Shown: one piece after another, positions 50,409 to 63,174 of the stretch
Layout: each line of letters starts with the position of its first letter
Position numbering within the stretch: position 1 is the stretch's first letter
Assembly (NCBI RefSeq): GCF_000166295.1
Contig: NC_017506.1
Coordinates: 1,922,001-1,986,000 of the forward strand
Length of the DNA stretch: 64,000 bases
Source: Marinobacter adhaerens HP15
GTDB taxonomy: Bacteria; Pseudomonadota; Gammaproteobacteria; Pseudomonadales; Oleiphilaceae
Reading direction: 5' to 3'
The notes under the pieces: generated by a model
What the model was told of the DNA's origin: nothing
Database searches by the model: none
The model's input: the letters and a program-made list of their open reading frames with translations, nothing else
Position numbers and translations under genes: made by a program

Positions 50409-51404
50409 TCACCCGGGCAGGAAATCAATCGGGAACCTGACCTTGCGGGGCTCAACATTGTCGGCCCCGAAATTGAAGAGCCGTACCCGCATGGCAATCC
50501 GTTGCTCCAGGGTGGCATGCCCAAGCTCCGAACTGACTACCTCGCAGGCGGAAACCGAACCATCCGGCTCTATGACCAGCTCCAGCAAGACTTTGCCCTC
50601 TAGGGTCGGGTCCTGGCGGAGTTCCCTCCGATACATGGAATAGAGTGCCGTTTTCTGGGCATCGAAGACTTTCCGAATATTGCTCATTGCCCGCTCACCA
50701 GCGGACGGGGCTGTCTCGGCAGGTTTAGCAACCACTTGCCTGGTTTCTTCAACGGGGGCCGCAACTGTTTTGACCTCGTGCTCAGCCACAGCGACGGTTG
50801 TTTCAGGAGCAACCGTATCTTCAACTCCGCCACTGCCAGCGAGGACTTCCGTCGATGCCTCATTCTCTCGGGTTCGACCCGGGGCGCTGCCTTCCGTGTT
50901 GACCGAAAATTTTCGAGCCGGCGCTGGTTCGGGGGACCTGAGTGATGCCAACTTGTCCCTCATCGACAGCAGCCCCGATCTCGACGCTTTCTCCCTAGCC
51001 TGCTCGATGGTTTGCGTTGGCTTCGGCTTTGGCTCCGAAGCTACCTGAGGTTTTACCTCTGGTTCCGGAGCAGGTTCAACCTCGGCAACTTCCGGCTCCG
51101 GCTGTTCAGGCTTTTCAGGCTGCACTTCTGGTTTCGGCTCGGGCTCGGGTTCCGCCTCGGGCTTCACCGGCTCCGGTGTCACCACCGGTTGCGGCTTCTC
51201 CACCAGGCGAGCCAGCCTTGGGGGAATCGTCTCGGCTTCGCTGCGCTCGATCTCCGGCACATCCTGAGTGGGAATTAGCAACGCAGGCGGCAAAAACAGC
51301 GCCGTCACCAACAAGACGATGCCCGTAAATCGTCTACTCTCGGCCTGATCACGACTCCATGGCAGCCCTGAATCGCCCATTCGAGACCATCCGCTGTCAG
51401 CCAT
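50409..51404 (-). CDS. TonB-like protein with AgmX/PglI-type C-terminal domain
   Basis: 331 residues. A short cytoplasmic N-terminus, one membrane helix (25-44), a long Pro/Glu/Lys-rich spacer (about 70-130), a linker, then a folded C-terminal domain (240-331: YRRELRQDPTLEGKVLLELV, EPDGSVSACEVVSSEL). That domain is the AgmX/PglI type, related in shape to TonB and found in Myxococcus gliding proteins. It should link the ExbB/ExbD motor encoded upstream to the outer envelope. ATG 51404 is chosen for GGGAGG upstream; it overlaps exbD by 8 bp. Last gene of a nine-gene operon. Confidence 0.82.
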   Translation of the reverse strand: MADSGWSRMGDSGLPWSRDQAESRRFTGIVLLVTALFLPPALLIPTQDVPEIERSEAETIPPRLARLVEKPQPVVTPEPVKPEAEPEPEPKPEVQPEKPEQPEPEVAEVEPAPEPEVKPQVASEPKPKPTQTIEQAREKASRSGLLSMRDKLASLRSPEPAPARKFSVNTEGSAPGRTRENEASTEVLAGSGGVEDTVAPETTVAVAEHEVKTVAAPVEETRQVVAKPAETAPSAGERAMSNIRKVFDAQKTALYSMYRRELRQDPTLEGKVLLELVIEPDGSVSACEVVSSELGHATLEQRIAMRVRLFNFGADNVEPRKVRFPIDFLPG

Positions 51405-51885
51405 TTCGGACCTCCCGTTCCACAGCGAGCCGCACCTGCCGGTACTGCTCATCAACACAGGTCTGCATGACCTTGCGAAGCAATCGGTAGTCGGTGTCGC
51501 GACCCGCCATGATGGTTACGTCAAGCCCCTCCTCGGGAATTTCAGACCAGCGACTGCGACGCCAGGAAAGCTCTTCCGAAAGCCCAGTGATATAGGTATC
51601 ACCAATCTCGATACCCTCCAGTCTTGCAACTTCGCTGCCCTGAACGAGAATGGCATTGCCCGTTATCTGGACTGTCAGGCTCTCAACGGCCGCCTGTTGC
51701 GCCGTGGACTTTGGCAGTGGCACGTCCGCGGTGTTCTGCATCACTTTCACATCCGACGAATTCACCATCAGGAAGAAAACCAGGATCGTGAAGATGTCCA
51801 TCAGGGACACCAGGTTCAGGCCCCCAGGCTTCTTCATACGGCCGTAATGTCGACGAATTCTTTTGGCCTTGCGCGAGGTCTTCAT
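51397..51885 (-). CDS. ExbD/TolR-family protein (Asp-bearing)
   Basis: 162 residues. A basic N-terminus is followed by one membrane helix (about 23-42) with the motif LNLVSLMDIFTIL. D30 aligns with the proton-carrying Asp of ExbD and TolR. A periplasmic domain follows (ESLTVQITGNAILV, VTIMAGRDTDYRLLRKVM). It probably forms the proton-conducting half of a heterodimeric pair with the neighbouring ExbD. It overlaps the upstream exbD by 4 bp (ATGA) and the TonB-like gene by 8 bp. Confidence 0.88.
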   Translation of the reverse strand: MKTSRKAKRIRRHYGRMKKPGGLNLVSLMDIFTILVFFLMVNSSDVKVMQNTADVPLPKSTAQQAAVESLTVQITGNAILVQGSEVARLEGIEIGDTYITGLSEELSWRRSRWSEIPEEGLDVTIMAGRDTDYRLLRKVMQTCVDEQYRQVRLAVEREVRNG

Positions 51886-52412
51886 GCGTCCTCCCCGGAT
51901 TCAAGCCGGGCATTCGCCGCAAGCTTTCGGTCTGCGGGCGCATCCTTCAGCGAGACATCAGGAAACAGCTCTCCCTCAACCACGCTGGCCGCAACCACAG
52001 CCGGATAAGAACGGACCGTATCCATGGCCGTGATCAGTGTCTGGTAATCGATGTCTGGCCCGACTTCCAGAACCACATCAGTCTTCTCGGGAACCCGGTT
52101 TTTTATCTGCCGAAGGACCTGACGCAGGCCTTCGAAGTCTTGAACTGCCTCTTCTGCCGGCAACACACGGATCAAGCCGCGATCACTGTCGGCGATTTCA
52201 ATACCCTCCGGAATCAAAGTAACCACGAGACGGAACTCTTCGGGCGCCGGCGTTTCCCCGGCATCCATACCGGGAAAATTCAGCTCGATCATTCGAACCT
52301 GACTGAATACCATGCCGAGCAACAGGACAGGTACCAGCACAATCATCAGATTGAGAAAGGCGGTAATATCCAGCTCAGGCGATACGCTTAACCTGCGGTG
52401 ACGTCGTCTCAT
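51882..52412 (-). CDS. ExbD/TolR-family protein with Asn in place of the conserved Asp
   Basis: 176 residues. The membrane helix motif reads ELDITAFLNLMIVLVPVLL. Compared with TolR (EINIVPLLDVLLV), N21 stands where the essential Asp normally is, and D15 stands where Asn is usual. The periplasmic part is acidic and ends EVGPDIDYQTLITAMDTVRS, a good ExbD match. The protein may be a structural partner without its own proton site. It overlaps exbB by 4 bp and the second exbD by 4 bp. Confidence 0.85.
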   Translation of the reverse strand: MRRRHRRLSVSPELDITAFLNLMIVLVPVLLLGMVFSQVRMIELNFPGMDAGETPAPEEFRLVVTLIPEGIEIADSDRGLIRVLPAEEAVQDFEGLRQVLRQIKNRVPEKTDVVLEVGPDIDYQTLITAMDTVRSYPAVVAASVVEGELFPDVSLKDAPADRKLAANARLESGEDA

Positions 52413-53034
52413 GCTTCAGACACAATGTTCAGCAACTTGACGCCGGCCATTTCAAAACTGTCGACAATCTCATTGGTTCGGGTCTGTAGTACCGCATGAA
52501 ACATGAGCAACGGAATGGCCGACATCAGGCCGAAAGCCGTGGTATTCATGGCCACGGAAATACTTTCGGACAACAGACTGGCCTTCTGGGAAGGATCTGC
52601 CGCCGCCACCGCAGTAAACGCAGCAATCAGACCAATAATGGTTCCCAGCAGGCCGAGCAACGTCGCGATGTTGGCCAGGGTTGCCAGATATTGGGTACGC
52701 TTTTCCAGGCGCGGCAGCACTTCCATCAAGCCTTCTTCCATGGCGTACTCAATATCCTCCCTACGGCTGTTGCTCAGCAGACGGCCGATGCCCGCCCCCA
52801 TGATTGAGGCAATCGCACTGTCTGAGTTTGTGGCGGCTTTCATGGCGCGCTGATAGTCCCGCTTCCTCAGCAGCGGCAGGATGCCCCGCTCAAAGGCAAT
52901 CCGGTTTCGCCGCCGTACCGCAGAGAGATAGAAGAACCGCTCCAGAGTAATCGCCAACCCCAATGCCAGGACAATGGCGATGGGGTACATGAAGGGCCCA
53001 CCTTCCTGGAAAAACGTACGATCGTGTCCAGCAT
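52409..53034 (-). CDS. ExbB/TolQ/MotA-family proton channel, with a one-base frameshift near the start
   Basis: About 208 residues once repaired. From ATG 53034 the frame reads MLDTIVRF and then leaves the conserved frame at a TTTTT run (53010-53014). One extra T restores FFQEGGPFMYPIAIVLALGL, a typical ExbB start. Without repair, translation could begin at the internal ATG 52990. Three membrane helices are present; ATLLGLLGTIIGLIAAF carries the conserved Thr-Gly channel motif. GGAG lies seven bases before ATG 53034. It stands 13 bp after the small exported protein gene. Confidence 0.85.
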
Positions 53035-53047
53035 GACTGTTCTCCGG

Positions 53048-53395
53048 TTATTGCTCGGCCAAGCCTGAGTCTCCAACAGGGCTCAGGATGAGAGGATTAA
53101 GGTTTTCACGAAACAGACGGTGACGCTCGAGGACGACTGGATCTACCGGCCGGACCAGTTCCGGCGCCTCGTCATTCAGGTCCGCCCTTGGTCGTTTTGG
53201 CAGGCTTGGGGCTTGCCAGGGCAGTATGTAGAGTACCCGCGGCTCGTCTTCGCCGAGGCTGGCGGATATACCCTCAACAGCCAGCCGGTTCGCTTCTTCC
53301 TGATCCGCCTGCGCCGGGTTGAGGAGCATTAACTGGAGGCCAACCAGCGCCAGTACGCGTAAAACGACTTTGGCAGTTTTGCGGATATCAGCCAT
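53048..53395 (-). CDS. Small exported protein of unknown function
   Basis: 115 residues. A signal peptide (about 1-30, LLNPAQA) is followed by a short mature chain with several prolines (LPWQAPSLPKRPRADL, ELVRPVDPVVLERHRLF). No family recognised and no cysteine. It starts directly after the TPR lipoprotein stop and precedes exbB by 13 bp, so it is likely a periplasmic accessory of the ExbB/ExbD complex. Confidence 0.75.
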   Translation of the reverse strand: MADIRKTAKVVLRVLALVGLQLMLLNPAQADQEEANRLAVEGISASLGEDEPRVLYILPWQAPSLPKRPRADLNDEAPELVRPVDPVVLERHRLFRENLNPLILSPVGDSGLAEQ

Positions 53396-53878
53396 TTATT
53401 GCAGCCTCCGTTCCAGATCCGCTATCCAGCCAGCCACCTGCTGGTCTTCTTTATCCGTCAGCTGCCGGTAGCGGTTGTAATGCTCAAGGGCAGTCTGAAG
53501 ATCCAGCAAATAGAGCTCGGCAATCACCGCCAGATTAAAATGCAGCTCGGCCACATCCGGCGAATGGCTGATGCCCAGTTCCAGTAGCCTCGCCGCTTCG
53601 GCGAATCGGTACTGGTCCTTTAGAACGAGCGCCAGGTTGTTGACTGTCACCGCCCTGGTCGGATCCAGCTCCACGGCTTTTTGCCATGCATTCACTGCCG
53701 CGCCTTTGCGACCTTCTTCGAAGGCCACCCGCCCCTCCTGTTCATAACTTGCTGCCAGTTCCGGATCCTTTCCGATGGGCGTCTCCGGCTGCCGGACTTC
53801 CTGCCCGGCGCAGCCGACGAGCAACACCAGAAGCGCCGCCAGTGGCAGGCCCGTTTTCCCCGTTGAATTACACGCCAT
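53396..53878 (-). CDS. TPR-repeat lipoprotein
   Basis: 160 residues. ATG 53878 gives a lipoprotein signal with lipobox LLVGC, then two or three TPR units (SYEQEGRVAFEEGRKGAAVN, AVTVNNLALVLKDQYRFAEA, VAELHFNLAVIAELYLLDLQ). The residue after the lipid Cys is Ala, not Asp, so outer-membrane sorting is likely. Its size and architecture resemble the short TPR lipoproteins of gliding-type complexes. It overlaps the large TPR gene by 11 bp. Confidence 0.82.
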   Translation of the reverse strand: MACNSTGKTGLPLAALLVLLVGCAGQEVRQPETPIGKDPELAASYEQEGRVAFEEGRKGAAVNAWQKAVELDPTRAVTVNNLALVLKDQYRFAEAARLLELGISHSPDVAELHFNLAVIAELYLLDLQTALEHYNRYRQLTDKEDQQVAGWIADLERRLQ

Positions 53879-56675
53879 CCCTGATCTCCATAGTCCAGCC
53901 AAGCCACTTAACACTCCGCTCGTAACGTCCCGGGTGCAGCTCCGCAAGAACGCCAAGGCTGCGTCCTATCCAGGGGTCATACCCCTCGGCCGTAATCCGG
54001 CGATGGTTCTCCGTATGCAGTTGAATGGCTTTGTCTTCGAATGGGAAAGCTTCTTCCTCCAGTAACATCTGATACTGCATCGCCTCCAGTTCATTCAAAT
54101 CCGCTGGAACCGCGGATGCCATCAGGTCTTTGGCCAGACCACGATAGAGTTCGGCCCGTCGGAACAGCGATTCAGACAGAACTCGCTCGCCGCCCAGAGC
54201 TTCGGCATCCAGGAATCTCTGTCGAGCCGATTCCAGCGCCTTTTGCTTGCGCGCCAGAGATTGTTCCAGCGGCTGGCTCAGTCTGATGCTGGTAAACAAT
54301 GCAGCCGCACGGGCACCGAGAACCAGTGACGACCGGGAGGCCCACTCAAGGGTGTCGGCGGTGTGCCAGGTGCTGTCCAGCTCTGACTGGACCAGTACTT
54401 CCCTCCAGGCATCGGGATTGTCGCCGGCTTCTACCAGGCGATGCCGGAATGTCTGGAGCTGTTCATGTTCGGCCCCGCTCTCTGCCTTCGGAGCCGTTGC
54501 AAGGTAATCCCTGTAAAGGGCATTTCGTTCCGCTACATTCCCGGCTTGATTCAACAATTCCGCAGCCCGCAACTTCAGGCTCCATGGGTTAGCGTGATTG
54601 TCGGCGGCCTGCAATAATTCTGACGCCGCGCGGGTGGGTTCATCAGACTGAATCCAGGCATGTACCAGCTTTTCGCTGATGCCGGCAGTAAGCTCGTGCT
54701 GGGGAAAATCGGCGCGAAAACTCTGCAGGTCGCCGACGGCAGCGCCCCAGTCCGATGCTTTGAGTAAGGTGTTGGCGGCGTCGTAGCGCGCACGGATCGC
54801 AACGTCCGAACCTGGTAGCACCGAATCAACCCGTCGGAAGTGCCCAACGGCCTCTCCGAGCCTGCCACTGGATACCGCGAGCTCTGCCTGGCGATAGACG
54901 GACGTCGCCAATTGCTTCCGAATGGCTGAGACCTGCTCTTCGGTCACGTTTGCGAGCCGTTCACTTTCGGCAAGATTCAGCGCCTGGCCCCAGGCACGCT
55001 CCGCCAGGCCATAGTCGCCCTCTTCCTGGCGTATCCGGGCCATGACCTGCCATGCCGCGTATCGCTCTGCCGGAGACGCCGTGGGCGCAGTCAATACCCG
55101 CGAACCATAATCCAACGCCAGTTGGTGGTCGCCGGCGGCCAGCCACCGGGCGGCGAGATCTGCCATCAGGCCGGGAATCCGGCTATCCCCTTCGAAACGT
55201 CCACTAAAGCGGTTGGCCTCATTGGAAACATCCTTCAGTTCGGGTTGAAAGGCAGACACAGTGGTCGGCCGGTCAAGACTGTTTCTCAACAGAGCAATAG
55301 CGGCCCAGGCAGCATCGGCAGCCTCGCTGTAACCGGGCGACTCATAGGCTGCTCTGCGAAAATTCGTCAACGCTTTCGGAAAATCCCTCGCCTGCAGCCA
55401 GGCATCACCAGCAAGGCGTAGCATTTCGCCGCTCTGATCAATCCTCGGAGCCAGGTGTGCGTAATAAACCGCTGCCTCAGCAAAAGCGGATTCAGCCTTC
55501 GCCACCCGGCCCTGTTCCACCAATCGTGTGGCCAGGTCATAGTGGTAATCCGCCAACCGTTTGCTGTAACTCAGCCATTTATTCTTCTGTTCACCAGTCA
55601 GAGCGGCGTAAGCGGAATCCTGGCTGTAGCTGGCGACGAACTCCGCACGGGCATTGCGAACCTGCTCCGGATCACCAGCCGCTTGCCACACATCCACTAT
55701 CTGTAACCGGAAGGCAGGCACAGCACGGTGACTGGGCGAATAGTCAATAAAGGCCTGATTGGCAGCAACACTTGCGATGGTCTCGCCCTTCACCGCGTAG
55801 TAATCGGCCAGCCGATCGAACAGGAGATGTTCCCAGTGGTGGGAACGGCTCCCATCCAGCCAGGCAATAAGGGTTTCCGTACCGCTGTTTCGGGCAGCCA
55901 TCAGGGCAAGCACCCGAAACGTGTCATCGATGGTATCAACGCTCGAATCACTGACTGACCCCAGGCTCTGTGCGCTCGGCAGGAATTCATCCAGAACTCT
56001 GATAAAGGTCGCTGCGGCCCTGTTCCACGCAGACGGCCCCTGTTTGAACTGGCTCCAACCGAGCATGTATCTGGCCTTGATGCCCAGCTCTCCACCAGCG
56101 TCTGAATTAATCAGGTGCAGATAGCCGGTTTCCGCTTCTGTGTAGCGTCCGGCTGCGAAGGCGGATTCAGCCAATCGGAACCTGGCCTCTGGCACAAGAG
56201 GGGATTTCGGATATAACCCGACCAGCTGTTTCAACCTCTGGAATGAAGCATCCTGCTGCCCCGTCAGAGCATGGGCCTTGGCCATCTGGTACAGCAGCTC
56301 GTCAAGCCTCCCGCCATAGGAACCTCGCTCGAGAATAGACTCATAGCTGCTGATGGCCTCGCTGTAGACCTGTTCTTCTTCAGACGCCGACAAGCCAACG
56401 TCTGATCCTGACCGATCCCTGATGTTGCTCAGCCGGTTGAGGGCATCGATCCGAACCTCAGGCTCGTCCGATGTCCTGAACAGGCGATGGTAGCGCCGGG
56501 CCACTTCCGAAGGCGAGATCGCCGGCATCGGCCTGCTTTCAAAAGTAAGAAACACCGGTCGCATGTCCCCGATCGTCTCTCCGTCCCGCCCAAGCTCTAC
56601 ACGAAAGGCTTCCTGGGCTGCAGCCGGGACCACCAACATCAAGCAGAGGAACAAGCCCGCAACTGGTTTCATCAT
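53868..56675 (-). CDS. Large exported TPR protein
   Basis: 935 residues with a signal peptide (about 1-20, VVPAAAQ). Almost all of the mature chain is helical repeats of TPR type, for instance LLYQMAKAHALTGQQDASFQ, ARFRLAESAFAAGRYTEAE, ARYMLGWSQFKQ and RYAAWQVMARIRQEEGDYG. It should be periplasmic and act as a scaffold. No catalytic motif is visible. It overlaps genes on both sides by 4 and 11 bp. In size and place it resembles the large TPR component of Myxococcus Glt/Nfs clusters, but similarity is at the architecture level only. Confidence 0.8.
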   Translation of the reverse strand: MMKPVAGLFLCLMLVVPAAAQEAFRVELGRDGETIGDMRPVFLTFESRPMPAISPSEVARRYHRLFRTSDEPEVRIDALNRLSNIRDRSGSDVGLSASEEEQVYSEAISSYESILERGSYGGRLDELLYQMAKAHALTGQQDASFQRLKQLVGLYPKSPLVPEARFRLAESAFAAGRYTEAETGYLHLINSDAGGELGIKARYMLGWSQFKQGPSAWNRAAATFIRVLDEFLPSAQSLGSVSDSSVDTIDDTFRVLALMAARNSGTETLIAWLDGSRSHHWEHLLFDRLADYYAVKGETIASVAANQAFIDYSPSHRAVPAFRLQIVDVWQAAGDPEQVRNARAEFVASYSQDSAYAALTGEQKNKWLSYSKRLADYHYDLATRLVEQGRVAKAESAFAEAAVYYAHLAPRIDQSGEMLRLAGDAWLQARDFPKALTNFRRAAYESPGYSEAADAAWAAIALLRNSLDRPTTVSAFQPELKDVSNEANRFSGRFEGDSRIPGLMADLAARWLAAGDHQLALDYGSRVLTAPTASPAERYAAWQVMARIRQEEGDYGLAERAWGQALNLAESERLANVTEEQVSAIRKQLATSVYRQAELAVSSGRLGEAVGHFRRVDSVLPGSDVAIRARYDAANTLLKASDWGAAVGDLQSFRADFPQHELTAGISEKLVHAWIQSDEPTRAASELLQAADNHANPWSLKLRAAELLNQAGNVAERNALYRDYLATAPKAESGAEHEQLQTFRHRLVEAGDNPDAWREVLVQSELDSTWHTADTLEWASRSSLVLGARAAALFTSIRLSQPLEQSLARKQKALESARQRFLDAEALGGERVLSESLFRRAELYRGLAKDLMASAVPADLNELEAMQYQMLLEEEAFPFEDKAIQLHTENHRRITAEGYDPWIGRSLGVLAELHPGRYERSVKWLGWTMEIRDGV

Positions 56676-58078
56676 GGCTGCGTCTCCTCCAGGCTCTGAA
56701 GGGCGAGATATTCGTAAAGATGCGCAATTTGCTGTTCGGTTTTGTCCAGCGCAAAGGCCATCTGCTGATCTCTGGCTTCGACATACTCAAGTGCCAGTTT
56801 GTCCAGCGCCGACTCGCACCTTTCAAGCAACTGACGAACAGCCGATAACAACACCTCGTTTCGCCTTTCCAGCGCAAGGGCTTCACGACGCAATCGATTC
56901 AGCGTTTCCGGCTGCCGGGATCCCCTGGCCTGGACCTGTTCCAGTCTGGCCTGTGTGTCGGCCAGCGTTTTATGAAGGGAGCGAATACGGGCTTGCTGAT
57001 CTGGATCGGCTTGATTGGCCAAACTCTCCAGGCTGGCACTCAGATCCTTGCCCCGCGCGGAGAGATCCATTTTGCTTTGATCGGCGAACGGGTTCTGCAT
57101 GCCGGCGAGTTTGTCTTCAAGCGCTCCCCCGAACACCTGCAGATCATGACCGTGGCGATCCAGCTTTGCCGCCATGGTGCGAAGGGCCACGACTCGCCCC
57201 GCCGCCCTCTGCGCCTCCGGACCCTCCATGAAGCCCAACAGATAGGCCATTCGCGGTTGAGTCAAGGTGCGGCTGTCGGCAAGAAACCAGTCAACTCCGG
57301 TCTCCCTGGCATCTTCCAGCAGGGTTTTGTAGGCGCCCTGTTCGCGAATCTTGCCGGCAAGTTTACGAAGCGTGACCCGTTCACTCTCGAACGCAGCGTT
57401 GGCCGCAAGGTAGGCTTCTCCAGCCTGCCCGAGATAGCCGGAGAGATCGTAGCCGCGCCCCATCCCTATCCATGCGTCGGCAACTCCCGGGTAGGCCAAA
57501 GGATATTTCCTGGCTCGATGCCAGCTCTGCATAGCGGCCCGGTGATTGCCTTTTTCTGTCAGCGCCAAGCCGTGCAGGTAAAGGGCCCGCGGCGTGTTGA
57601 AACTGTCGAGATCGACCTTCTCCAGAAAGCCGATCGCTTTATCGAATTCGCCATGCTGGTAGGCAAGGTGGCCCGCACGTACCAACAGATTATTCTCCAG
57701 ATTCTGGCTACGCTCGGAATCGGCGTCACCATCGGACATGGCTAACGCAACCCGCAGAGCAACCAGCGCTCTGGCCGGGTTAAGATCGGATTTCGCGTAA
57801 TCACTGGCAAGATTGAGGTATCCCAGAGCCGCCCAGTAGCCCTCTTTCATACCGGCCAGGATGCGCCCGGCCTCATCGGTGCGGCCTTCGGCTCGTGCCT
57901 TCTCAGCATCTTCATAGAGCGCTTGCTGTCGTCCGTCCCCAAGATCGACGCCGACTTCTCCCGCCTGCCGGAATTGCTTGAGACCAGAAAGGACATCATC
58001 CGGCATTACCGGCGTGGCCGCCCCGGAAAAGCCGGAAACAGTCAGAGGTAACACAAACAGGAGGACCCGGAGCATCAT
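56672..58078 (-). CDS. Exported TPR and coiled-coil protein
   Basis: 468 residues with a signal peptide (about 1-20). The first half has TPR-like units (YLNLASDYAKSDLNPARALV, RAGHLAYQHGEFDKAIGFLE, YLHGLALTEKGNHRAAMQSW). The second half, about 330-460, is a long coiled coil (QARIRSLHKTLADTQARLEQ, LRREALALERRNEVLLSAV). It could span periplasm to peptidoglycan. It starts 6 bp after the previous gene and overlaps the large TPR gene as ATGA. Confidence 0.8.
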   Translation of the reverse strand: MMLRVLLFVLPLTVSGFSGAATPVMPDDVLSGLKQFRQAGEVGVDLGDGRQQALYEDAEKARAEGRTDEAGRILAGMKEGYWAALGYLNLASDYAKSDLNPARALVALRVALAMSDGDADSERSQNLENNLLVRAGHLAYQHGEFDKAIGFLEKVDLDSFNTPRALYLHGLALTEKGNHRAAMQSWHRARKYPLAYPGVADAWIGMGRGYDLSGYLGQAGEAYLAANAAFESERVTLRKLAGKIREQGAYKTLLEDARETGVDWFLADSRTLTQPRMAYLLGFMEGPEAQRAAGRVVALRTMAAKLDRHGHDLQVFGGALEDKLAGMQNPFADQSKMDLSARGKDLSASLESLANQADPDQQARIRSLHKTLADTQARLEQVQARGSRQPETLNRLRREALALERRNEVLLSAVRQLLERCESALDKLALEYVEARDQQMAFALDKTEQQIAHLYEYLALQSLEETQP

Positions 58079-58084
58079 GGCGCC

Positions 58085-58633
58085 CTACTCCCGCTCCATG
58101 AAAGAAACCCGAGGTTCGTAATCGGGCGCCCGGGCTTCCAGACTCATCTGCAAACGGAGTACGCCGGGGCGTTTTCTGAACTTATGGGTGGATTCCCGCC
58201 GCACGAAATCATCATCGGCGGAGCGAGCGGTAATCACCGTTTTCAACTCATGCTCGCCGTTTTCCAGGTTCCCGGTGAACAACTGCTGGATTCCGCCGCG
58301 TTCAAGCGATGTCCGCTCTCTATCGGAATACAGGTGGGAAGCCACGGGCTGGCCATTGACGAACAGCTCCACAGAATCAAGATTGAGGGCATCCCGGCTC
58401 TGAAGTGTCAGAAAAACTGCCAGTCGGGTATTGGCTGGATGCAGGACCTTCTGCTCAAGAGCGAAGACGCGCTCGGAATGGCTGGCGACCTCGGCACTCA
58501 GCCGCTCTAACTCCTCGTCAAGCCCGGCCGCAGCCGTCGCTGGAGCAGACAGCAATGCCAGAACCACTGATCCGATGGCGAATACCCTTTGGTCTGCTAT
58601 CCGGCGTCTTCGTGTTTGTTGTGTGCCGAACAT
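58085..58633 (-). CDS. Exported protein opening the ExbB/ExbD operon
   Basis: 182 residues from ATG 58633, which is preceded by AGGAGG only three bases away and yields a good signal peptide (basic MFGTQQTRRRRIADQR, then a hydrophobic stretch ending PATAAA). The mature part has a short coiled coil (DEELERLSAEVASHSERVFA) and a beta-rich domain (LDSVELFVNGQPVASHLY, GEHELKTVITAR). No family recognised. It is the first of nine co-directional genes. The 346-bp gap upstream holds only a candidate RNA near 58981. Confidence 0.72.
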   Translation of the reverse strand: MFGTQQTRRRRIADQRVFAIGSVVLALLSAPATAAAGLDEELERLSAEVASHSERVFALEQKVLHPANTRLAVFLTLQSRDALNLDSVELFVNGQPVASHLYSDRERTSLERGGIQQLFTGNLENGEHELKTVITARSADDDFVRRESTHKFRKRPGVLRLQMSLEARAPDYEPRVSFMERE

Positions 58634-58879
58634 AAGCCTCCTGCCCTTGTAGCCTCTGTAACTCATGCAAACTTCTGTAACAGATCGGCGGAAAGCGTAA
58701 CACTTGGTAACCGCCAAGAACGGTATCCAGATCACCAAATGAAAAACGCGAGTTCGGCAGTTAAAAACTGAGAAGAGTGTCGACTTATTTGACAGGGAGG
58801 GGAGATTTATCGGAGCAAAATAAAGGCTAAGCGGATAAGTTGAATTTTAAACGACTGTTTTAGCAGCTTTTAAGTCAAG

Positions 58880-58981
58880 TGGCCCTGTATTTGCTCACTG
58901 GAAATCGGCGGGAGTGCCTTCAGGCAACCCCGCTTGATATGCCGAGCTTTGCCGATGCCCTCAACCGCATCGGCTTTTTTT
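58880..58981 (+). ncRNA. Candidate short RNA ending in a plus-strand terminator
   Basis: Downstream of the operon start region, on the plus strand, a hairpin GCGGG..TGCC-TTCA-GGCA..CCCGC (58908-58933) is followed by a terminator: GCCGATGC / GCATCGGC (58951-58958, 58967-58974) and TTTTTTT. TCGGC at 58905-58909 can pair with GCCGA at 58941-58945. No plus-strand gene precedes it, so it may end a small RNA. The T-run overlaps the coxE-like stop codon on the other strand. No clear promoter is visible. The rest of 58634-58879 shows nothing I can name. Confidence 0.35.
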
Positions 58982-61051: not shown

Positions 61052-63174
61052 TTACTTTTTCTGGTCTTTCTGATCCGGTTTTTTCTTCGAGTCGTCTTCG
61101 GGCAATCCGGACTCGTCCTGATCATAATCGGGTAAATCGTCGAATTCGGACAGATCGAAATCTTCAAGCCCGAACTCCTCCTCATCATCATCTTCCGGCC
61201 CATCAGCGTCGGACGGATCGGCAATATCCTCCAGCTCCGGGATATCCTCATCCAACTCGCCAGGCTCTTCCTCCACCGGGGTATCCGCTACCGGGATGTC
61301 CTCTTCCAGTTCGTCGGTCGGTTCAATCTCTGGTTCCGTAAGCGCTTCATCTTCCGACTTCAGAGCGGCCTCATGTTCATCAATGACGGCCTCCAGCTCA
61401 GACATATCGTCCTCAAATGCTTCCTCGGTTACCTCAGGGATTTCCTCGGCTTCGACATCCTCTTCCGGCTCTGAGACTGCCTCCGGCTCGGGTTCTGGTT
61501 CGGGTTCGGTCTCTTCCTGCAGATCCTCAAGTGTTTCGCGCTCTGATGCTGCTTTCTCTTGCGCCTGCTGATCCTGTTTACGCTTACGGATGGCAAACCA
61601 GACCAAACCGCCAATGAAGAGAAGACCACCGCCGGCTGCGCCGACCATCCACAAAGGCACGGCAAAGCAGGTTCCGCGTCTTCCGGCTCCTCAGGGGCCG
61701 GTTCAGGCTCCTGGACCGCTGGCGTCTCTGGCTCCTCCACCTCGCTTACGTCGATGGGCGATGTAATCGCCGGTTCCGGCCCGGATTGCTCCGGCTCAGA
61801 CACCGGCGGCTCCGGTTCAGACTGCTCAGGAGCGAGCGCCGGTTCTGTCACCTGCGGCTCCGGCGATTCAGCCGGTTCAACCCCTTCAGGCATCGTAAAC
61901 CCGACGGTGGCGCTGAACTTGCGGCTGAAGGTCTGGCCATCGGCCACCACGTCAAAGGTGTAGAGGCCCGCGGCTGGCAAACGACTTACCGTATCCCGGT
62001 AGGTGCCGTCTTCCGGCGGCTGCTCTCCCGACAATACCTTGGTTCCACTTCTGCCATCCTCGGAGGTGATACTGAGGCTGACCTCAATCACACCCAGAAA
62101 ATCGGGATTAGTGATTTTCTCACCTTCTTCGAAAAAGCCGACCCGGAGCTTGAGGGGCTCCTGCAATGTAAATGAAGGAGGTAGAGGATTGACCACCATC
62201 CTCAGATCGCTAACGACGGTAACCCGGCTGCCCTCTCCGAGTTCGCCATTAATGCGCCACTGCCCTGCCAACGGCTCATTGACCGTAATAAGATCGTAAC
62301 CGGCTTCCCTGGCCCACCGGACGTTGTCGGGAAACTCCGAAAGATTAACGACCTGATCGTCCGGGCGCACGAGGGCAAGCTCCCGGGTGGCAGAGGTTTC
62401 AGACTCGCCCCAGAAAATCAGGGCGGTAAACTCACGAACGCCCTCGTCCACAGTAAAGCCATTGCCCTCAATGGGAATCTGCTCCTGTGGGACCGCGGTA
62501 TTCAATGCCTGAAGAAATGCCAGGTTCAGCGCATCTGCTGTATCCGCCACCTGGAAACGACCGCCGGAGTCTGTCGCCAACGCTTTCAGAAAGTCGGTAT
62601 CGGCGGCCTCAGAGAGAGCCACGGGGTGAAAGGTAGCGCCCCTTTCGATGAGATCAGCGACAATCGTATCCAGAATGCGAGTTTCCTCTGCGGTATTCTT
62701 TGCAGGATCGTCGGAGATATCGACCTTGCCGTCGGTCAGCAGTATGAAGTGGGTCCGGCTCAGATCGCCGTCTGTGAAATAATCATCGCTGGCTGTCTCA
62801 ATAGCCGCGCCAAGGTTTGTTCTGAGTGCGACCGAGTTAATCTGAGCTGAGCGCTGAATGGCCATTTCCCGCCATGCGTTGTTCACCTCACGGTGCGGCA
62901 CCAGCATGTTGACATACTGCCCGAAGGTCCAGACACCCGCGGAGGCCCCCTCTGGCAAAAGCCGGGCCAGCAGACGCACGGCGGGCTGTCGCAGGTTGTC
63001 CGGATCGGTGTCTTTCATGGAGCCCGAGATGTCGACTATGATCCGGACGTCCGACTGCTCCGGCAGTTGAACATCGTCGCTCTCCTGGGCATTCAGCCCG
63101 GCTGGCAGACTGAGCACGAAGCAAAGTGCAACCAGCCCAAACCATCTCGATGTCATCTCTCTCAAGGCATCCAT
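61052..63174 (-). CDS. Membrane-anchored VWA domain protein, interrupted by a one-base frameshift
   Basis: About 707 residues if repaired. Frame one (63174 down) has a signal peptide (1-29), a VWA domain with intact MIDAS DISGS (48-52) and a beta-rich region, then a Pro/Glu-rich linker. Frame two (from about 61660) has a membrane helix (AAGGGLLFIGGLVWFAIRKR) and a very acidic cytoplasmic tail. One extra T in GCTTTGCC near 61666 joins them as EPAFAVPLWMVG. The domain order signal-VWA-helix-acid tail is coherent. It lies upstream of moxR in the same run. Confidence 0.8.

Follow-up and report, generated by a model that had tools for sequence, protein, structure and literature searches.

A nine-gene ExbB/ExbD/TPR operon of Marinobacter as a probable envelope motor and transducer, with related clusters that keep the transducer and lack the motor

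In Marinobacter adhaerens HP15, nine genes on the minus strand at 50409-58633 of the 64,000-nucleotide stretch analyzed here (NC_017506.1, positions 1,922,001 to 1,986,000; hereafter the window, numbered from its first letter) probably encode a motor-plus-transducer set with the core content of the Myxococcus Agl-Glt and Nfs machines. Such a set would likely be driven by protons and, by way of a TonB-like rod, exert a pull on a TPR scaffold in the periplasm, moving or positioning cargo at the cell surface, and its transducer would be separable from its motor. From the 5' end the genes are as follows.

g1, 58085-58633, minus strand: exported protein of 182 aa without a Pfam family; an N-terminal helix, a coiled coil and a beta-sandwich of Ig/transthyretin-like fold are predicted
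g2, 56672-58078, minus strand: exported protein of 468 aa, weak TPR and coiled coil; GltC-like by position
g3, 53868-56675, minus strand: exported TPR protein of 935 aa; GltD-like by size, repeats and position
g4, 53396-53878, minus strand: TPR protein of 160 aa with a lipobox (by eye); GltE-like
g5, 53048-53395, minus strand: exported protein of 115 aa, matching no family
g6, 52409-52990, minus strand: ExbB/TolQ/AglR-type channel subunit; intact copies in relatives
g7, 51882-52412, minus strand: ExbD-type subunit that has Asn in place of the canonical channel Asp; six residues before it lies an invariant Asp
g8, 51397-51885, minus strand: ExbD-type subunit with the canonical channel Asp
g9, 50409-51404, minus strand: TonB-like rod with a single N-terminal membrane helix, Pro-rich linker and AgmX/PglI C-terminal domain; GltG-like

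A published core complex and its parts

By content and order, as read from sequence, the operon belongs to a published core complex and is not a new system. The accessible sections of Luciano et al. (2011, PMC3169522) describe aglR, aglQ and aglS together with gltC, gltD, gltE, gltG and one additional gene, which has no myxococcal homologue, in a single region in gammaproteobacteria, a complex of unknown function that is duplicated in two Marinobacter and was named there as the ancestor of the machines for gliding and spore-coat assembly in Myxococcus. The comparison with Agl-Glt and Nfs that the initial annotation had drawn from the letters of the window was thus already in print. What the two descriptions share is a cluster of an ExbB, two ExbDs, three TPR proteins, a PglI-type protein and one or more additional genes, as well as the duplication in Marinobacter; seven plus one genes were published, whereas the window operon has nine, with g1 and g5 as candidates for the published additional gene. 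The additions made here are a division into three types, clusters that have lost their motor while a second motor is kept, a tie to a lipoprotein with haem-binding motifs and an asymmetry between the two ExbDs. We did not find types I-III, motor loss or the haem-motif lipoprotein in the accessible sections of that paper, nor, in the open-licence literature, any work on what the core complex does in gammaproteobacteria.

All nine open reading frames were found at the predicted places, and most overlap or abut: g1 and g2 are 6 bp apart, g4 and g5 adjoin with no gap, and overlaps join g2-g3 (4 bp), g3-g4 (11), g6-g7 (4), g7-g8 (4) and g8-g9 (8). The claim that no gap exceeds 13 bp holds at every junction but g5-g6. 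The usual ExbB start, at 53034, does not share the frame of the remaining gene in this assembly, so that the open frame of g6 begins at an internal ATG at 52990, 57 bp after g5; the start region is in frame in all 28 relatives compared. An exported VWA-transmembrane gene (61052-63174, minus strand; VWA frame 61429-63174) is likewise frame-broken near 61650, where 8/8 compared relatives read through. Two such breaks within 10 kb suggest assembly errors, with real decay as the alternative.

Profile searches with Pfam and NCBIfam bore out most of the proposed gene families. MotA_ExbB matches g6 (102.5 bits), ExbD matches g7 (41.7 bits) and g8 (54.8 bits), the AgmX/PglI C-terminal domain (NF033768) matches g9 at 59.3 bits against a cut-off of 40, and TPR models exceed their cut-offs on g3 and g4; the TPR assignment of g2 falls below cut-off, and g1 and g5 have no family above it. 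Signal peptides and the g4 lipobox were judged by eye rather than with a prediction tool. A sequence search of the PDB gave no match for g1 up to an E value of 1 or for g8 up to 0.1. The fold model of g1 is a coiled coil with an Ig/transthyretin-like sandwich, and that of g9 has a membrane helix, a low-confidence Pro-rich stretch and a C-terminal domain modelled with confidence, for which the tips of TonB and TolA are the best PDB matches.

Compared with the Agl-Glt and Agl-Nfs machines of M. xanthus, the operon has the same AglRQS-like motor and GltC/D/E/G-like transducer, and g2, g3 and g4 fit GltC, GltD and GltE in TPR content, size and order (the GltE model reaches 16.9 of 225 bits on g4). 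These core parts are also what a gliding-motility machine as in Myxococcus would need, and the NCBIfam models for GltG (full length, 42.5 of 650 bits) and GltJ (41.7 bits) do find g9, both far below cut-off. However, the M. xanthus machines differ in their Group A genes (GltA/B/F/H/I/J/K), of which the operon has no counterpart: in a profile search limited to these nine genes, no outer-membrane barrel or Group A model rose above cut-off. Neither sporulation nor gliding is known for the host, and we regard gliding as a very improbable function for this operon.

Conservation of the gene order

To place the operon among its relatives we took the best 80 of 238 loci from an ExbB scan of named genomes; since the loci were picked by ExbB, its presence in them is true by construction. 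Eight of these 80 are cut short by the end of a contig or of the locus. Among the remaining 72, which give a full view, 62 carry all nine genes in order, 8 have an in-frame fusion of g1 and g2, and 2 (both Oleiphilus) lack g8. The conserved order spans Marinobacter, Tamilnaduibacter, Mangrovitalea, Hahella, Oleiphilus, Spongiibacteraceae, Teredinibacter and Paraglaciecola, with two small blemishes: g3 of L031, which is counted among the 62, is broken in frame, and g9 of L021, a fused locus, is cut by the contig end. The g1-g2 fusion requires three changes among motor-bearing rows of the g3 tree, and the g1 and g2 products therefore likely act as one piece; the fusion also occurs in 3 of 13 clusters without a motor, described below. 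A protein search with the g3 alignment returned no M. xanthus among the best 120 of 417 matches, and the named matches among these 120 were Marinobacter, other Marinobacteraceae, Tamilnaduibacter, Alkalimarinus and unplaced Pseudomonadota.

Across these loci the TPR genes are co-conserved with exbBD, and this bears directly on whether the operon is a TonB2/TtpC-type energizer for uptake through TonB-dependent receptors. The window operon shares with TonB-ExbB-ExbD and TolA-TolQ-TolR the channel subunits and a rod that ends in a tip of TonB/TolA fold, g6-g8 are ExbB/ExbD relatives, and the tip of g9 comes close to two TonB models (TonB_C, 23.1 bits with a cut-off of 24.6; tonB_Cterm, 24.7 with 27.1). 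The operon differs, however, from both the TonB and the Tol systems in its two unlike ExbDs, its three TPR proteins and its lack of a receptor or Pal. The specific models fall far short (exbB2, 36.6 bits with a cut-off of 135.35; ExbD_2, 13.3 with 123.45), as do those for TolQ and TolR, none of the nine genes encodes a receptor, and three exported TPR proteins are co-conserved. An uptake energizer is thus extremely unlikely, in agreement with the initial annotation, which had set ordinary iron uptake aside.

Paralogous types and an unlike pair of ExbDs

The window operon has a paralogue that the initial annotation overlooked, as it did the motor loss described below: a second, collinear nine-gene operon in the same genome (about C1:2236110-2245284), with identities of 67% for ExbB, 32% for g3 and 43% for g9. 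We group the Marinobacter operons by bands of ExbB identity to the window operon into type I (81-100%, which includes the window operon itself), type II (66-70%, which includes this paralogue) and type III (57-60%). One member of the lowest band (G030, locus L121, ExbB 58%) has a DUF3570 gene upstream, is nearer type II in character, and reads g2-g3 as a single frame of 1550 aa. The type II paralogue of the window genome scores higher than g4 with the GltE model (43.2 against 16.9 bits), still under the cut-off of 225.

The motor genes of the window operon, an AglR-type ExbB side by side with two ExbD-type genes in the places of AglQ and AglS, are split in a consistent way. ExbB/TolQ motors turn proton flow into motion, and the position compared here in g7 and g8 is that of the ExbD channel Asp. 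All 106 g7-type proteins read carry Asn at this position (82/82 main rows, 11/11 of the type III band and 13/13 of type II from genomes whose type I cluster is motorless); g8-type proteins carry the Asp (80/80, 11/11 and 13/13). Six residues before this position, where ExbD carries Asn, g7 has an invariant Asp. In M. xanthus, according to the accessible sections of PMC3858216, the D28N change in AglQ abolished proton conductance, paralysed Agl-Glt and stopped Nfs movement. For both AglQ and AglS a conserved Asp halfway through the membrane is predicted, and whether the two proteins form hetero- or homodimers is left undecided in what we could consult of PMC9389320; the Asp/Asn split between g7 and g8 bears on this question.

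Transducers without their motor

The clearest sign that motor and transducer can be parted comes from Marinobacter itself. Among 124 genomes of the genus, type I g3 is present in 95 and type I ExbB in 80, not counting one further copy truncated at the end of its contig and another with a broken frame; 13 of the 95 lack exactly the type I ExbB-ExbD-ExbD and keep the transducer genes. No g6-g8 match occurs in the 13 fetched stretches. Where g9 is complete in the stretch (n = 10), it follows g5 directly, overlapping it by 4-10 bp in nine and standing 52 bp away in one (G097); in the other three, g9 runs off the stretch with its frame starting 4 bp inside g5. Ratios of nonsynonymous to synonymous substitution rates (dN/dS) of 0.08-0.25 (g3, g4 and g9 in three pairs, g1 in one pair) mean that the motorless clusters are maintained under purifying selection.

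All 13 of these genomes hold a type II ExbB-ExbD-ExbD with the Asn/Asp pattern, compared with a type II ExbB in 28 of the 80 motor-bearing genomes, which suggests motor sharing of the kind known from Myxococcus Agl and Nfs. In M. xanthus, the accessible sections of PMC3858216 report that spore-coat assembly by Nfs needs AglRQS and that AglR interacts with both GltG and NfsG; nfsA-H, like the motorless type I clusters, is a transducer without a motor of its own. By this analogy, the motorless type I transducer would likely be driven by the motor of the type II paralogue. The two Oleiphilus loci without g8 are a second, partial case, and the same assemblies hold a complete type II operon (L084, L081). 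At the two Oleiphilus type I clusters (L066, 12266-14146; L070, 11824-13671) there is no ExbD with the canonical Asp, and a large TPR-like gene then follows.

Several observations weigh against this reading. The 13 motorless clusters form one clade in the g3 tree and so represent one loss event, which means that a Fisher p of 7e-6 overstates the case. Other ExbB-type channels, matching at 33-37%, are present in most of 61 genomes and could serve instead (that of the window genome adjoins, by eye, a ComEC-like gene). Adaptation of the motorless g9 to the type II motor was considered and set aside for want of a clear signal: its N-terminal membrane segment has an identity of 0.40 to type II, compared with 0.38 for type I's own, and still 0.43 to type I. 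Two motorless genomes show damage, G097 with g2 in two frames and an altered g5, and G115 with its type II g9 in two frames. The likeness to the M. xanthus machines is one of gene content and order, and no experiment on the window operon was found in open-licence papers.

Loss of the whole unit

Type I can also be absent as a unit. An empty type I site, with MoxR and CoxE beside it, was found in 11/11 fetched genomes without type I; CoxE and MaoC stand 17-330 bp apart in five of them, and in the other six MaoC is gone too, with a CoxE-ligase distance of 178-1051 bp. Damaged copies exist as well: a remnant with an internal deletion (L147), such as is kept by G056, near the window's genome, and a copy with frame breaks (L148).

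Such repeated loss and breakage, perhaps including the ExbB of the window, is what one would see if type I were a redundant copy of type II that is being lost. However, 15 of 61 genomes have type I motors and neither type II nor type III, and the motorless clusters are under purifying selection; we judge simple redundancy unlikely. The clean absences also bear on whether the operon is a second Tol-Pal-like system for outer-membrane attachment or constriction in which TPR proteins replace TolB and YbgF. The nearest NCBIfam models for g6 and g8 are indeed TolQ (66.3 bits) and TolR (25.9 bits), g3 matches YbgF and BamD-type TPR stretches (53.8 and 55.5 bits), and type II g3 exceeds the YbgF cut-off (112 against 90.1 bits, summed over four stretches). 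The scores in the window nevertheless lie under the curated cut-offs (TolQ 221, TolR 127.3, YbgF 90.1, BamD-type 81.4), Pal, TolB and TolA are missing from the nine genes, and a unit cleanly missing in 11 fetched genomes is unlike an envelope-maintenance system. We hold a Tol-Pal-like role to be rather unlikely, and the observations lend no support to iron uptake, Tol-Pal or stand-alone gliding.

A haem-motif lipoprotein with types II and III

In the type III band (L120-L130), a gene for a lipoprotein of about 975 aa follows g9 in 9 of 11 fetched loci (it is cut by the contig end in L126, and L121 differs), accompanied by a gene for a protein of 225 aa; the L120 copy of the lipoprotein matches PD40 and HZS_alpha. 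All eight copies read, from 2 type III and 6 type II-like genomes, carry two CxxCH haem-binding motifs, and identity between the type III query and the copies of type II is 31-41%. Over 61 genomes the lipoprotein occurs in 34 of the 35 that hold type II or III, and it is absent from the 26 that hold neither, among them all 15 with type I only; these counts are not independent, because the species are related. The single exception (G052) is an assembly 85% complete. This near-perfect co-occurrence points to a testable cargo for types II and III.

The surroundings of type II have features of their own. At the window genome's type II locus (L006, 6111-18645; G000:C1:2236110-2248644), genes for DUF3570, a thioredoxin-like protein and SH3/outer-membrane barrel proteins lie upstream, and beside these is a lipoprotein gene with two CxxCH motifs (L170). 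Among 12 type II-like loci, eight, including this one, have DUF3570 immediately upstream with SH3/barrel genes before it, and five have the thioredoxin-like gene; a DUF4266-like gene was seen, by eye only, at two type II loci (L080, L085), and in one Teredinibacter locus (L086), the only such case seen, ApbE takes the place of DUF3570. DUF3570 is present in 25 of the 61 genomes, namely 23 of the 25 with type II, G030, and G015, a genome that lacks both type II and type III. According to the accessible parts of a 2021 eLife study (PMC8238504), DUF3570 is flavinylated by ApbE and linked to thioredoxin and DUF4266; its main text mentions neither ExbB nor MotA. DUF3570 and, in part, the thioredoxin, DUF4266-like and ApbE genes of such flavinylation clusters are found upstream of type II paralogues and not of type I. 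The [S/T]GA[S/T] flavinylation motif of that study is found in 4 of 8 type II DUF3570 copies (L081, L084, L085, L087) and in none of the four Marinobacter copies read (L006, L073, L078, L080), so that flavin on the Marinobacter DUF3570 is not supported, and we dropped it.

Upstream region and neighboring genes

Aligning 58 sequences shows blocks of strong conservation in the intergenic region 58633-58980: a hairpin (58951-58974), an inverted-repeat-like element and the following block.

Non-coding block 5' of g1, 58715-58739, minus strand: strongly conserved

These blocks likely regulate g1, and that at 58715-58739 is likely a promoter or regulatory element. No second copy of it within 3 mismatches exists elsewhere in the genome, and a regulon defined by this block was accordingly rejected. 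In the window there is no tRNA and no Rfam match above gathering score, and promoter and terminator counts are no higher than in shuffles.

MoxR and CoxE-VWA genes lie upstream of type I, and they are present in 59 and 60 of the 80 loci, respectively. CoxE was present in 21 of 23 genomes checked, a set that included two motor-bearing controls, five motorless genomes and two with broken type I clusters; the two misses are assemblies 82 and 87% complete. As parts of the machine both were rejected: they stand beside the empty site in 11/11 fetched genomes without type I and, persisting where the operon is gone, are neighbors. In Marinobacter flavimaris (L008, 2126-3935), two extra open reading frames stand between CoxE and g1, one of them exported-VWA-like by eye.

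How the machine may work and what it may mean

We infer from these parts how the machine might assemble, use protons and pull. The motor would consist of the ExbB (g6) and a hetero-pair of ExbDs, g7 without and g8 with the canonical channel Asp, and proton flow through g6-g8 would be converted into motion of the rod g9. Anchored by its membrane helix, the rod would extend through its Pro-rich linker so that its TonB/TolA-fold tip could reach the TPR scaffold of g2/g1, g3, g4 and g5. This transducer, made up of g2 with g1, g3, the lipoprotein g4 and g5, would lie on the periplasmic and outer-membrane side, and a pull on it at the outer membrane would likely move or position surface cargo. For type I, the most likely kind of cargo is a surface polymer or an outer-membrane protein; since there is no barrel gene among the nine, an outer-membrane partner, if there is one, would be encoded elsewhere.

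The motorless clusters, in 13 genomes of one clade, and the two Oleiphilus clusters would allow motor sharing to be tested directly in marine bacteria. A broader picture, which we offer tentatively and think somewhat doubtful, is that the envelope machines of Marinobacter are interchangeable and share their proton motors. Where type I transducers have lost their own motor, that of type II would drive them in trans, as Agl drives Nfs, and types II and III would move or energize a surface redox module in which a diheme beta-propeller lipoprotein acts with SH3/outer-membrane barrels. If this is true, then the orphan core complex would gain its first cargo, and the sharing of motors would become a general trait of the Agl family.

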